Origin: a virus
DNA: 64,000 nt
Reading direction: 5' to 3' (one strand)
Virus record (IMG/VR): IMGVR_UViG_3300010413_000019
Span: 1 to 64,000 of that record
In this document: piece by piece, positions 17,951 through 38,293 of the stretch
Numbering within the stretch: the first letter of the stretch is position 1
Layout: each line of letters begins with the position of its first letter
The notes under the pieces: model-generated
Told to the model about the DNA's origin: nothing
The model's database searches: none
The model's input: the letters and a program-made list of their open reading frames with translations, nothing else
Program-made: the position numbers and the translations under genes

Positions 17951-18198
17951 ATTACAGTACAAATTACAGTACAAAATCGAGCTTAAAAAAATATGGCCCT
18001 ATACAGTGGATTGAGTGGTGGACTGAGGACCCACCACACCACTATTTCTTAAAGTCCGATAAAGTCCGAAAACTAAGTCCCCATAGACATTTACCCCGCA
18101 TTTATAATCCAACGTAGTCCAGCTTAATCCGGATGAATCCAGAAATAATTACAGTACATATTGCAGTATAAAAGTTTTATGCCGTATAATTACAGTAT
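17951..18198. repeat. Five copies of ATTACAGTA(C/T) in the integrase control region
   Basis: ATTACAGTAC lies at 17951, 17963 and 18148, the variant ATTGCAGTAT at 18160 and ATTACAGTAT at 18189. Two pairs share the same 12-bp spacing. They lie in the divergent space between DNA polymerase and integrase, so arm-type integrase sites (attP) or operators are the natural options. Between them are AAAGTCCGA twice (18051, 18061) and a GTGGTGG/CCACCAC stem (18015-18021 with 18031-18037). Confidence 0.75.
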
Positions 18199-18208
18199 AA
18201 AACTTGGA
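18185..18208 (+). promoter_or_regulatory. Integrase promoter -10 and ribosome site
   Basis: TATAAT at 18185-18190 sits inside the last ATTACAGTA repeat, followed by TTGGAGG 6 bases before the integrase ATG. A protein bound to the repeats would control this promoter. Confidence 0.5.
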
Positions 18209-18216
18209 GGTGTAGC

Positions 18217-19440
18217 ATGGGTCGCACAACAAAACCTCTCAGCGATGCGGAGGTCCGCAAAGCAAAATCCCTCGAAAAGATGTATAAGCTCTTTGACGGA
18301 GCGGGGCTCTATCTCGAGGTGAAGACAAATGGCCGTAAGGTATGGCGTACCGACTTCCGATGGGAAGGCAAGACCAAATCATACACGATCGGAGACTATC
18401 CGACAGTGACTCTCTCTTCGGCCCGTATAACGTCCCAGGAGGTCCGTGAGGATGCCAGGAATGGCATTGATCCAGTACAGAAGAGAAAAGGCTCTGAGGG
18501 CTCTGAGAATGCTGTATCCATACAGACCTTTAAACAGGTTGGAGATGAGTTCATGGAACTCAAATCATACACGTACAGTCTGTCACACTACATGAAGCAG
18601 CACGGCCGGTTGAACAACTACGTCTACCCCTACATCGGATCCAGGGATATCAGGGAGATCACCAAGCAGGACATCATTGATCTGATCAAGAATGTCCAGA
18701 AGGTAGAGACTAAGACCACCCGGCAGACTCAGAAGCATGAGACAGCCAAGAGAGTCTTTCAGTTGATCTCACAGATCTACCAGTACGCGGTGCACCATGA
18801 CATCGTCATTGATGACATCCCCCGGAGGATAGAGTTCAGTTCAGTCATCCCCAGGATCACCCCGCAGAAGCTAAAGGCGATCGTTGAACTCAACGGGGTC
18901 AGGATGATGTACGGGATGCTCTCGGAGTACCAGGGAGACTTCACAACGAGGAACGCATTGAAGTTCCTGGCTCTATCTGCACTGCGGCCGGGGAACATCC
19001 GGAACATGAAGTGGGAGTACATCGACTTCCAGAATGATGTGGTCAACTTCCCAGGGGAAGCTATGAAGATGAAGGAGTCATACAGACTCCCTCTCACTTC
19101 CACACTGATCCAGTTGATCGATGAGATGAAACCCCTCACCCGGTACCATTCCGAGTATGTCTTCTGCTCGCCTATCGCTCCGAGCAAGCCGATGTCCGAG
19201 AACACTCTGAACTACGCCCATAAAAGAATTGGGATCGCAGACCATAATGCCCACGGCTGGAGAAGCTCGTTCTCAACCCTCTGTTATGAGAAGCAGAAGG
19301 ATCACGGCTTCGGAGCTGAAGTAATAGAGAGCCAGTTGGCACACTCACTGGGGAATGCGGTGAAGACTGCCTATCTCAGGAGTGATTTCATCGTTGAGAG
19401 GCAGCTGCTGCTCCGATGGTGGGAGAAACTGATCACGTAA
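18217..19440 (+). CDS. int: Tyrosine-type integrase
   Basis: 407 residues, the size of P4-type prophage integrases, with the N-terminal DUF4102-like domain (about 5-90), a SAM-like core-binding domain (about 100-200) and the catalytic domain. Catalytic residues are all present: R257 (SALRPGN), H346-x-x-R349 (HGWRS), H376 (LAHSLG) and Y386. It is the only long plus-strand gene in the left half and sits in its own control region. It would recombine attP with a bacterial attB, commonly a tRNA gene for this family. Unexpected in an N4-type phage. Confidence 0.93.
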   Translation: MGRTTKPLSDAEVRKAKSLEKMYKLFDGAGLYLEVKTNGRKVWRTDFRWEGKTKSYTIGDYPTVTLSSARITSQEVREDARNGIDPVQKRKGSEGSENAVSIQTFKQVGDEFMELKSYTYSLSHYMKQHGRLNNYVYPYIGSRDIREITKQDIIDLIKNVQKVETKTTRQTQKHETAKRVFQLISQIYQYAVHHDIVIDDIPRRIEFSSVIPRITPQKLKAIVELNGVRMMYGMLSEYQGDFTTRNALKFLALSALRPGNIRNMKWEYIDFQNDVVNFPGEAMKMKESYRLPLTSTLIQLIDEMKPLTRYHSEYVFCSPIAPSKPMSENTLNYAHKRIGIADHNAHGWRSSFSTLCYEKQKDHGFGAEVIESQLAHSLGNAVKTAYLRSDFIVERQLLLRWWEKLIT

Positions 19441-21119: not shown

Positions 21120-21322
21120 TATTCTCTCAAAAGTGTTTCATTGTGTTTGATGGCTCTGAGGATCTCAGATATCCGGTAGTTCTGCCGGCGCTGCCACTTG
21201 ACGCTCTGGAGTTTCAGGACAAGCTCGAAGGCCAGTCTGTTCTTCTCCAGCAGAGCTTCATCATAGGGCATGTCATGCCATGTCGCCTTATTGACACCGT
21301 AGTAGTACTTACAAGTCTTCAT
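21119..21322 (-). CDS. Small conserved-looking phage protein
   Basis: 67 residues from the ATG with GGGAG; starts inside the end of the preceding gene. Contains KYYYGV...HDMPYDEAL, a helical, basic protein reminiscent of small phage proteins of unknown role. Confidence 0.6.
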   Translation of the reverse strand: MKTCKYYYGVNKATWHDMPYDEALLEKNRLAFELVLKLQSVKWQRRQNYRISEILRAIKHNETLLRE

Positions 21323-21728
21323 ACAGCTCCCACTTTTTGGTTTTAGGGTTGTAGTACTCGATCCGGTCGAAGTAATCAAGGGGGACATCTTGTATCGCCA
21401 CATGCCATTCATCCGGGTTAGAGCCTACTGATAAAGCACTGAAGCACAGACCGTCCCAGTTAATTGTGAATTGTTTGTACTCTGAGGCAGGAGGTATATG
21501 AAGACCTTTCCCCCAGTTATAGCGCAGTCGGATACGGCCGACAGTGTCCAGCTCTTCATGGGTATTGAGCATGAAGCATGTCTCTTCCCACTCTTCATTT
21601 GAGCTGAACCATACAAAAGGCATCTCATACGGTAGTAGTTTACTTCTATCGTGAGGAGATCTTTTTACGATCCCCGACTCTTTGATCATAATGAGCTTGG
21701 GAACCAAGGTGTAATGATAGAGGTTCAT
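21309..21728 (-). CDS. Possible ADP-ribosyltransferase-like fold protein
   Basis: 139 residues. The N-terminus LYHYTLVPKLIMIKESG and the following PFVWFSSNEEWEET resemble the HYT...SG...W(F/L)S pattern of small ADP-ribosyltransferase/RES-like proteins. I do not see a confident catalytic Glu motif, so the call is tentative. AAGGAG before ATG; start overlaps the transglycosylase stop. Confidence 0.45.
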   Translation of the reverse strand: MNLYHYTLVPKLIMIKESGIVKRSPHDRSKLLPYEMPFVWFSSNEEWEETCFMLNTHEELDTVGRIRLRYNWGKGLHIPPASEYKQFTINWDGLCFSALSVGSNPDEWHVAIQDVPLDYFDRIEYYNPKTKKWELYEDL

Positions 21729-22178
21729 TCACTGCTCCTTCAGGATCCGCTGGACCTTGTTGTAATAGGTATAGTTTTTGGTTCCACCGTTGTATCTGCT
21801 GATGGCCCCGAAGTAGCCGTGACGTTTACGGTGGTACTCGAATAGTTTGCACCCGACCATAACACAGAAAGCCCGGTTGTGGGTCAGGATATGCTTGAGT
21901 GCTTTATCCGGTACGTGCTTGACCCATCTGAGTGACTGCTCTTTCGTAGCGAGCCATCTCAGTGTAGGGATCTGCACCTGCATAACACCGTGGCTCTCCC
22001 CATCGTCTCCGGTCACATTACGGCAAGAGGTCTCGGCCTTTGCCATAGCCAGGATGGTGGAAGGGTATTCAGTGTACTTCTCGGCTTCCTTGTAGACTGT
22101 CTGCACACACTCTTTATCGTATGCTGCGGCCTGTATGGAGAGCCAGCAAGCACATAAGAGTGCGAGCAGTAATCTCAT
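21729..22178 (-). CDS. Exported lytic transglycosylase (SLT-like)
   Basis: 149 residues. A cleavable signal peptide (about 1-18) precedes an SLT fold: catalytic Glu in KAETSCRN (about residue 50), GVMQVQ and the YNGG motif near the end. It cuts peptidoglycan glycan strands. A signal peptide means Sec export, so it would not need a holin for access (SAR/SP-type endolysin). It lies next to a TM protein, in the accessory rather than the late block, so entry, lysis or conversion are all possible. Confidence 0.8.
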   Translation of the reverse strand: MRLLLALLCACWLSIQAAAYDKECVQTVYKEAEKYTEYPSTILAMAKAETSCRNVTGDDGESHGVMQVQIPTLRWLATKEQSLRWVKHVPDKALKHILTHNRAFCVMVGCKLFEYHRKRHGYFGAISRYNGGTKNYTYYNKVQRILKEQ

Positions 22179-23790: not shown

Positions 23791-24147
23791 TTACCTGTGC
23801 CCACCTTTGAGTAACTCGACAAGGTATTGCTCTTTTGTCTTACCCTCCATCAAAGCCTTGTCTTTGATAGCCAGACCGGCAAGTAAGGCCTGTATGGTCT
23901 TTGGTTCAAGGGCGTGTAGGAGGTACTCTGCGAGGTGGGTTGATTTTGTGAATCTCTGCCCGGTAAGGTTCTCGAGTATAAATGCGACCATCCCGTCTTC
24001 AGTTTTGTAGACTCTTTCGGACATATACAGAATACCGGTAAGGGTATTTCGATCATCCATATTTTCAATATGGTCGACGGCTTCCCCGAAAGTACGACCT
24101 TCATGGTTGAAGGTGTATTCCATCGGATCTTTGGTTAAAAATTTCAT
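23791..24147 (-). CDS. Hypothetical protein
   Basis: 118 residues, AAGGAC before ATG. Helical, acidic, no known motif. Tightly packed in the accessory operon. Confidence 0.6.
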   Translation of the reverse strand: MKFLTKDPMEYTFNHEGRTFGEAVDHIENMDDRNTLTGILYMSERVYKTEDGMVAFILENLTGQRFTKSTHLAEYLLHALEPKTIQALLAGLAIKDKALMEGKTKEQYLVELLKGGHR

Positions 24148-29956: not shown

Positions 29957-30032
29957 TGGCCAATGCGGGTGGACTCGAACCACCAACCTTCGGATTTGGA
30001 ATCCGGTGCTCTACCAGTTGAGCTACGCAAAG
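29957..30032 (-). tRNA. tRNA-Trp (anticodon CCA)
   Basis: Full cloverleaf on minus: D arm GCTC/GAGC, anticodon loop TTCCAAA, T loop TTCGAGT and encoded CCA. The acceptor pairs CTTTGCG with CGCATTG, leaving two adjacent U-U mismatches, so charging or processing may be weak. Confidence 0.85.
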
Positions 30033-33654: not shown

Positions 33655-34683
33655 TTATGATAACATGTATTCACTCTTACGGATGTCCTCCGCAAGGTCA
33701 TAACTGAACTTCTTCAACTGAACATCTGTACCGGTAATCTCGCTGATGATATCGCTGAGCAGGTTGCTCTCTGCAATTTCAGCCAAGATGTCACGGTAGA
33801 AGTCCATCACCTTTGGCATGTGGTTCGGATGGCATGTGAAGGCATCATGGATATGTGCTACTTCAAAGTCTGCACGTCTGATAATCTCACGTGCGACATA
33901 CCCGTCAATGCTGTGGATGATGTTGGGCGCCAAGGATGTTTTACGGTCACTTGGTTGGTTCGGGTAGAAGCGGTATGTGAACTGCATGTGATTGAGTTCA
34001 TCCACTTCAATACGTGCATCGACTTGGTCGACTACGTTTACCTTTGCCACGTGACCGTCTGGCAATGTCCACTGGTGGAAGTATGCGAACGGGTCCCAAG
34101 CATTGTTGATGACCTGCATGACAGCCTCTGCACCCGTGAACTTCTCCATGAGAATCTCGTAGAACATGTTAAGCTCCATCGTATCCTCACCAAGTAGCTC
34201 TTTAGGCTTGGCCTTAGAGTTATAGTAGTGAGTCATGATAGGCTTTTTGATGTAGCTACGGGTGAACATAGGGTTCTCGCCGGCTTTAGCGATAAGTGCG
34301 TCCGATACGGCTGTATAGGCGTCATTACGCTGGCCGTTGTTGATAAGGTTTACAGCTTCGGCTGTCTTCTTACACCCTGAGAGTGCGGCCATGATTTGTA
34401 GCCCACTTGCAGTGGCATCCATGAACATGTTGTGGTTGATAGGCTTACCGTCTACCGCATCGGCAAAGGCATAGCAGGCCTTGCGGAACATCAAAGGCTC
34501 TTCAGCCTGAGATGCCCACTCATCAAGATTGTTCAGGATATCTGTTTGGTTCTGGTTTACCCACTGGATGCGGGTTTCGAACAACTCTTTGTCAAGGCCG
34601 TAGGTATTGGCCATATCGATTTTCAACATGTCGAAGCCTGTGAAGCGCTCCGCGAATGAGATAGGTTTTGGTATTGCTGACAT
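33655..34683 (-). CDS. T7-like RNA polymerase, C-terminal subunit (N4 RNAPII gp16-like)
   Basis: 342 residues carrying the catalytic core. Motif A has D89 (FMDATASGLQ), motif B has the YIKKPIMTHYYNSK segment at 144-157 (fingers Lys and Tyr of T7 polymerase), and motif C has D280 (HIHDAF). It lacks the N-terminal half of the enzyme, which is encoded by the gene at 34846-35754. N4 also uses a two-subunit polymerase for middle genes, so the split is ancestral rather than a mutation. It would transcribe the replication block. Confidence 0.9.
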   Translation of the reverse strand: MSAIPKPISFAERFTGFDMLKIDMANTYGLDKELFETRIQWVNQNQTDILNNLDEWASQAEEPLMFRKACYAFADAVDGKPINHNMFMDATASGLQIMAALSGCKKTAEAVNLINNGQRNDAYTAVSDALIAKAGENPMFTRSYIKKPIMTHYYNSKAKPKELLGEDTMELNMFYEILMEKFTGAEAVMQVINNAWDPFAYFHQWTLPDGHVAKVNVVDQVDARIEVDELNHMQFTYRFYPNQPSDRKTSLAPNIIHSIDGYVAREIIRRADFEVAHIHDAFTCHPNHMPKVMDFYRDILAEIAESNLLSDIISEITGTDVQLKKFSYDLAEDIRKSEYMLS

Positions 34684-34845: not shown

Positions 34846-35754
34846 CTATGCTACCCCTGTAAGTATCTCTGCTTTGGCAAACTGTAGGATTGCCTTCTTG
34901 TACTCCGAGCCCTGAAGGTTGATATCATAGCCCTGTGAGTACTGGCGCCCGCGCTTGTCGAACTTCCACACGAAATAGAACTGGTTCTCATTGTCCAGTT
35001 CATACTGGTATACACGGTCTGATTGAGCACACCGCGCATTGTGCTGTTCGATTTTACGCAGTTCGACAGGATCCGTGATGTCTCCAGTCTCCTTGGGAAG
35101 TTCCTTCTCCGCGAGCATACATGTATTGAGTTCCCAAGCAATGCTTTGGAGTTTGTTCAACACATCAAGACTCTGTTTCATACCGTGGTAGTTCTGCTCG
35201 CCGAGGATGGCTGAGCTGTCTTCGAGAAGTAGTCCCCCATGTCTGTTGTCTGTCCAAGGACGTGGTTCACACGTCATCGGTGGCAGGTACATAGCCATGT
35301 GGATTTTCTGAAGAGTCTCATCTTCGAGTTTGAAGAATGGTTTGATGACTGCCGTATCATGGTCGTGCTCCGGACTGAAGGCATGAAGTATCTCATACAC
35401 TCCGGCATCCTTGCACACTGCAAGTATCTCTGCACCACACTTGACTGCATCAAGTTGCTCGAGACCGATACGGTGACCTAACATCGTGGCTACCGCCTGG
35501 ATAGGCGTGACACTGTCTAACGTACTGAGGACCGAATAGAACAGCTCAACAGCTATCTCTTCTGGTTCCATAGATATCTTGGCGATACGCTCATCCTTGG
35601 ATTTGAAATACTCCTTACCAAGGTACTCACGCACTGCAACTACACATTGCTGATAGTTCGGGTTACCGTTAAGGTCTCCGATGTCCTGTTTAATCCACAC
35701 TGGGATATTCTTTTTACTGTAAGTCTCTTCGACTGTTAATTGAGTTTGATACAT
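34846..35754 (-). CDS. T7-like RNA polymerase, N-terminal subunit (N4 RNAPII gp15-like)
   Basis: 302 residues. The C-terminal part FYFVWKFDKRGRQYSQ contains the D-x-x-G-R motif of single-subunit polymerases, and the last residues (AILQFAKAEI) match the stretch just before the break. The first residues of the other subunit continue the fold (KPISF...FDMLKI). The shared ribosome leader AAGGACATCCTC precedes ATG. Confidence 0.85.
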   Translation of the reverse strand: MYQTQLTVEETYSKKNIPVWIKQDIGDLNGNPNYQQCVVAVREYLGKEYFKSKDERIAKISMEPEEIAVELFYSVLSTLDSVTPIQAVATMLGHRIGLEQLDAVKCGAEILAVCKDAGVYEILHAFSPEHDHDTAVIKPFFKLEDETLQKIHMAMYLPPMTCEPRPWTDNRHGGLLLEDSSAILGEQNYHGMKQSLDVLNKLQSIAWELNTCMLAEKELPKETGDITDPVELRKIEQHNARCAQSDRVYQYELDNENQFYFVWKFDKRGRQYSQGYDINLQGSEYKKAILQFAKAEILTGVA

Positions 35755-35829
35755 GAGGATGTCCTTTTCGAGGTTGTATCATAGTTCATTGGCATAGGGT
35801 AAGTTAATACATGCATAGACATACCGGAA

Positions 35830-35856
35830 CTATTTGTCCGAATTTGTTACAATAGC
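35830..35856 (+). promoter_or_regulatory. Promoter of the RHH regulator
   Basis: TACAAT at 35848-35853 preceded by TGTTA (35845) and TGTCC 10 bases earlier, the same periodic style as the late promoters. The ribosome site AAAAAAAGGACATCC follows. Confidence 0.55.
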
Positions 35857-35878
35857 ACATCCAAAAAAAGGACATCCT

Positions 35879-36163
35879 ATGAAACACAAAAAGAAGATAC
35901 CACTCTCTGCCAAGGTCTCCGAAGAGACCACTGAGCAGTGACAGGACCTGCATGAATGGCTTGGCCTATCGAAGGCCGAGATATTAACTCGAGCGATCTA
36001 CCAGTACTACCAAGTCACCGAGAGAACATCATTTAAACTGATGTCACTGCAGAGACCGGATGATAGATTGTTCTTTATGAACACTGCCCGAGAGTTATGT
36101 TATGAAGCACTCGATAAGACTATCGAGAAGCTCAACGAGAGATTGAATGAGAAGTCTGAATGA
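35879..36163 (+). pseudogene. Ribbon-helix-helix regulator interrupted by an in-frame TGA
   Basis: The frame reads 20 residues (MKHKKKIPLSAKVSEETTEQ), TGA at 35939-35941, then 73 residues and a real stop. Joined, it is a CopG/Arc-like RHH protein: basic start, beta strand KIPLSAKVSEE, helix, LGLSKAEILTRAI, then a helical oligomerisation tail. The reading frame is intact on both sides, so this is a single nonsense change (CAG-TGA-CAG) or a recoded codon. It stands alone on plus between early operons, the place for a repressor. Confidence 0.75.
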
Positions 36164-36331: not shown

Positions 36332-36586
36332 TTAGGCTGTCTTTAGATATTGGTCAAGACCGGTTGTATCGATTTCACGAGAACCGAATTCTTCAACAGT
36401 AACATCTTTCAGCATTTTTGCAAGTGCCTCTGGAGTGATACGTTCTTGAACAGCTTTTGGAAGACGTTTGTTGATGATGACATATCCAAGATAAGTATCA
36501 CCGATGGAGAGAGAGAAACCTTTCGCGTCATCTTTCGGTTTCGGAGTTTGGTTTGCCTGATTGTTGTTATTCAGTGCTTCGGTCAT
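36332..36586 (-). CDS. Small early hypothetical protein
   Basis: 84 residues from the ATG with AAGGACATCCTC. Low-complexity Asn/Gln/Pro/Lys N-terminus, then a folded part with SLSIGDTYLGYVIIN and a helical end. First early gene left of a terminator; no family known. Confidence 0.6.
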   Translation of the reverse strand: MTEALNNNNQANQTPKPKDDAKGFSLSIGDTYLGYVIINKRLPKAVQERITPEALAKMLKDVTVEEFGSREIDTTGLDQYLKTA

Positions 36587-36644
36587 GAGGATGTCCTTAA
36601 AGTTATGTAATGAGATGCATTGCACTCACCCATCACTAAAAAGA

Positions 36645-38262: not shown

Positions 38263-38293
38263 TCGGAAACAGTACGAACAAAGGACATCCTCA

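Follow-up and report, generated by a model that had tools for sequence, protein, structure and literature searches.

A window of 64,000 nucleotides (positions 1 to 64,000 of the IMG/VR virus record IMGVR_UViG_3300010413_000019) comes from an N4-like phage with an integrase. In it, a candidate ribbon-helix-helix (RHH) regulator gene is divergent from the phage RNA polymerase genes and interrupted by one in-frame TGA. The best explanation, to which we give a rough probability of 0.58, is that the gene is real and accessory, encodes an RHH regulator and carries a recent nonsense allele in the present genome, the nonsense codon falling in the first helix of the DNA-binding domain and most likely causing a recent loss of function. 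The gene comprises:

35879–35938, plus strand: codons 1 to 20 of the RHH gene, with the basic arm, a predicted strand and the start of helix A
35939–35941, plus strand: in-frame TGA, which alignment with the RHH profile puts in the hydrophobic core of helix A
35942–36163, plus strand: post-stop frame of 73 codons and TGA, with the remaining RHH domain and a long C-terminal helix

The interval 35879–36163 reads as a single frame with one internal TGA after codon 20, and translates as MKHKKKIPLSAKVSEETTEQ, a stop, then QDLHEWLGLSKAEILTRAIYQYY...KSE and a final stop. CAG flanks the internal TGA on either side, and the 73 open codons 3' of it run to a terminal TGA at 36161–36163. The ATG is preceded by the leader AAGGACATCCT, with an intact ribosome-binding site, and the same leader and ATG also occur at three neighbouring genes. 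The sequence-only reading had described one frame, intact on both sides of the TGA, and both the translation and the codon-usage score agree: the score is highest in the RHH frame before and after the stop, the remaining frames and the reverse strand score below zero, and per codon it is clear before the TGA (+0.41) and weak after it (+0.07, in the lower quarter of frames used as genes). The intact start, leader and downstream frame fit a recent event, while the weak codon usage past the TGA counts against a nonsense allele. Two other ways past the stop were rejected: an RF2-like +1 frameshift at the UGA leads into a frame that stops within ~16 codons (by eye), and for a restart of translation no start codon upstream of ATG 36041 has a placed Shine-Dalgarno.

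Searched against Pfam, the joined protein matches RHH_1 (PF01402) over residues 9–44, spanning the TGA (E 0.0027 with X at the stop), and when the complete 71,681-base virus record was scanned in six frames, this gene, with its one TGA inside, was the sole RHH_1 match. The 20-residue and 73-residue pieces searched separately against Pfam gave no match. The score varies with the residue placed at the stop (Leu 24.8 bits, X 18.0, Trp 17.3, Arg 15.5) and, the curated Pfam cutoff being 20.5 bits, lies under it as sequenced and over it with Leu. We take the stop position, from alignment with Arc, to be in the hydrophobic core of helix A, and the preference for Leu over Trp argues for a mutated core position rather than a codon read as Trp. 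Single-sequence AlphaFold models of low confidence place helices at residues 17–28 (15–28 with Leu), 32–47 and 60–93, matching the RHH order with an additional C-terminal helix; the strand is not seen in a monomer model. Foldseek with the model returned no meaningful match, and NCBIfam and PDB sequence searches with the protein returned nothing credible. The earlier assignment to the RHH (CopG/Arc) type is supported, weakly by score unless Leu stands at the stop, and we regard it as likely, short of the full family standard.

These data also bear on the view that there is no RHH gene here: a leader peptide of 20 codons would precede an open frame that is separate or due to chance, at most a small gene from ATG 36041. 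The barely positive codon score of the second part, the sub-cutoff RHH_1 score as sequenced and the failure to find homologues in the collections searched would fit such an arrangement; however, the RHH_1 alignment stays in register across the TGA and appears at no other place in the record, the low-confidence helices follow the RHH order plus a C-terminal helix, and ATG 36041 lacks a well-placed Shine-Dalgarno. We consider it very improbable.

The comparison with homologues in related phages proposed by the sequence-only reading was run, and no homologue of the RHH protein emerged from any collection searched: 50,697 phage records, IMG/VR, GTDB genomes (the IMG/VR and GTDB scans reaching close relatives only), plasmids and 40 related records. 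A DNA pattern scan of IMG/VR with the RHH-gene leader gave nothing, and no divergent regulator was found beside RNAP1 in the N4-like relatives, loci from bacterial genomes included. Being absent from all other N4-like records searched, the gene is best described as accessory, one that can be lost. With no homologue found, conservation cannot decide between mutation and recoding, and that the gene was once intact is inferred from the domain match, neither an intact homologue nor a sister allele having been found.

The TGA might also have arisen as an error during sequencing or assembly, or represent a single allele in a mixed population. As an IMG/VR contig of metagenome type in which the sole defect found is a single base, the record is compatible with such an origin; against it, no other conserved gene in the window looks broken and the virion polymerase frame stays open for more than 3000 codons, which indicates that the consensus is good overall. 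We judge this explanation unlikely.

Recoding deserves closer attention, since the sequence-only reading had pointed to a phage-encoded tRNA-Trp as a possible reader of UGA. That gene is real:

29957–30032, minus strand: tRNA-Trp(CCA)

Its anticodon arm, CCGGA TTCCAAA TCCGA, leaves C27.A43 unpaired and so has a 4-bp stem; together with the 7-nt anticodon loop and normal A9 and G24, this agrees with the 4-bp-stem class. According to the functional readthrough account, a few ribosomes would read UGA as Trp, aided by this tRNA, and yield a low level of full-length regulator. UGA followed by C, as at the RHH stop, is a weak termination context. The frame is intact on either side, Trp is at least tolerated by the RHH_1 model (17.3 bits), and RNA folding at the stop is better than in shuffled sequence (z −3.4, with 2 of 150 coding windows at or below −3.1), in a window picked after the fact. 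tRNA-Trp of this class is reported to raise UGA readthrough ~2.5-fold in E. coli when overexpressed (PMC13092985). A 4-bp-stem tRNA-Trp and well-folded RNA around the stop would suit recoding and count against a nonsense allele. However, of 15 further phage tRNA-Trp genes sampled, 2 also lack the 27–43 pair, charging is doubtful given two U.U mismatches in the acceptor stem, Leu is the residue that the RHH profile prefers, the short product is a mere 20 residues, the RNA window was chosen post hoc and no homologue was found to show conservation of the UGA. The proposed link between the tRNA and the UGA holds as far as the 4-bp stem of the readthrough class, and is weakened by the trait not being rare in phages, a mispaired acceptor stem and a profile that does not favour Trp. 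On balance, readthrough is an improbable explanation. Its most elaborate form, in which a temperate N4-like phage would meter its repressor by UGA readthrough through its own 4-bp-stem tRNA-Trp, so that tRNA supply sets the choice between lysis and lysogeny, we hold to be a long shot.

Elsewhere in the genome TGA behaves as a normal stop, as had been stated from the sequence: 16 of 65 genes end in it, which rejects genetic code 4 (UGA as Trp) for this phage, and no conserved gene has an internal TGA. A candidate second recoded TGA, at 22178–21309 on the minus strand, proved to be two separate genes in the same frame, the second with its own ATG and AAGGAG. The first of these, a lytic-transglycosylase-like gene (21309–22178, minus strand), ends in GAGCAGTGA, with the adjoining ATG of the next gene in-frame. 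This junction reads as ordinary coupling; the six bases before its TGA are the same as in the RHH gene.

Returning to the nonsense allele of an accessory regulator, the gene neighbourhood suggests what the intact protein might control. The RHH gene and RNAP1 diverge from starts that lie 124 bases apart, and a 10-mer, AGGACATCCT, recurs at four start codons of this region:

33655–34683, minus strand: RNAP2, N4 RNAPII large subunit type
34846–35754, minus strand: RNAP1, N4 RNAPII small subunit type
35755–35878, no strand: intergenic gap from which RNAP1 and the RHH gene diverge, holding candidate promoters
35756–35765, minus strand: AGGACATCCT at the RNAP1 start
35869–35878, plus strand: AGGACATCCT at the RHH start codon, a Shine-Dalgarno and possible operator
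36332–36586, minus strand: 84-aa gene, convergent with the RHH gene
36588–36597, minus strand: AGGACATCCT at the start of the 84-aa gene
38282–38291, plus strand: AGGACATCCT at the start of the 233-aa gene

The window contains AGGACATCCT five times where 0.18 occurrences are expected, and four of the copies abut start codons, those of RNAP1, the RHH gene, the 84-aa gene and the 233-aa gene (38294, plus strand). The 10-mer is nearly palindromic; its AGGA part is the Shine-Dalgarno, and its CATCCT part is left unexplained by a Shine-Dalgarno. The simplest explanation is that it would serve the RHH protein as operator, but it may instead be a translation leader common to these genes. A scan of 80 related loci found AGGACATCCT absent. 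A copy with one mismatch, AGGACACCCT, stands at the start of the minus-strand gene that ends upstream at 24147, and the 84-aa gene has a distant homologue adjoining RNAP1 in another locus (L007). The placement beside early promoters that had been claimed found no support, as sigma-70-like sites occur in the region at chance level (8 found, 6.4 expected), though the divergent gap has plausible single sites: TTAACT, 18, TATGAT for RNAP1 (minus strand, 35807–35778) and, by eye, a candidate extended -10 for the RHH gene, TGTTACAAT (plus strand, 35845–35853).

An intact RHH protein would be expected to dimerize and to bind DNA, probably at the near-palindromic copies of AGGACATCCT overlapping the starts of its own gene, RNAP1 and two neighbours, and would restrain these genes. 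With the TGA, normal translation would give a 20-residue peptide unable to fold as a DNA-binding domain, and the genes bearing AGGACATCCT would then be expressed without restraint.

Such a regulator would have something to do in this phage, given an integrase and attP-like repeats:

17951–18201, plus strand: attP-like array, five direct repeats of ATTRCAGTAYAWA, 2 + 3 copies round a ~170-base core
18217–19440, plus strand: tyrosine integrase with arm-binding domain, beside the DNA polymerase

The phage is an N4-like virus (Schitoviridae) by its sequence, with the RNAP1 and RNAP2 families, a terminase 70–76% identical to those of many N4-like IMG/VR records, and a frame of more than 3074 codons that runs off the contig end in the position of the virion RNA polymerase, as which we name it, as expected, from size and position only. 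Genes for DNA polymerase and primase are also present. Two copies of ATTRCAGTAYAWA lie at 17951–17975 and three at 18148–18201, just upstream of the integrase; allowing at most one mismatch, the window has 7 occurrences of the pattern, where chance would give 0.54. This arrangement has the anatomy of an attP site, and the array and the integrase together make the phage probably temperate. The usual label for N4-like phages is strictly lytic. The integrase family was matched by 11 of 33 records including the present phage, 9 of them above the family cutoff, while a search of IMG/VR, sensitive to close matches only, found no relatives of this integrase. N4-like viruses with integrases have already been published (PMC10654107). 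We also observed N4-like terminase and polymerase loci (L168, L169, L170, L171 and L174) on contigs of bacterial genomes, namely Marinobacterium, Larsenimonas, Vreelandella, Xenophilus and a Burkholderiaceae MAG; the length of the Xenophilus contig, 914 kb, suggests an integrated provirus. The hypothesis that a nonsense mutation may have produced a virulent variant becomes more plausible given the integrase with its attP-like repeats.

The locus is of interest for its candidate regulator, in what is probably a temperate N4-like phage, no less than for its stop codon. N4-like phages with integrases have come to light only recently, and we found no description of what would keep such a phage silent; the RHH gene, divergent from an RNA polymerase gene and sharing its start-site motif, is a concrete candidate for that role. 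Its stop codon allows two possibilities to be put to the test, a natural loss of repression and recoding that depends on a tRNA.

Compared with known systems, the protein resembles the CopG-Arc-MetJ repressors of RHH_1 (PF01402) in its basic arm and in a strand and two helices that are predicted to be ordered and spaced as in that family, and like many phage regulators it is small and encoded divergently from its possible targets; it differs in its sub-cutoff score as sequenced, the TGA interruption, the extra long C-terminal helix and the lack of any solved or sequenced homologue in the collections searched. The phage Q-beta A1 protein is a UGA readthrough product, and genes of that kind likewise have one UGA between two open halves of a frame; in contrast, the short product here has only 20 residues and no obvious function, and no conservation was found. 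The tRNA resembles the 'Blastocrithidia-like' 4-bp anticodon-stem tRNA-Trp(CCA) (PMC13092985) in its unpaired 27–43 position, CCA anticodon and normal A9 and G24, but is phage-borne, has acceptor-stem mismatches and sits in a genome with no UGA reassignment. Relative to the integrase-bearing Schitoviridae (PMC10654107), the phage adds a candidate regulator beside RNAP1, present in no other record examined, to a shared set of N4 polymerases, terminase and tyrosine integrase.
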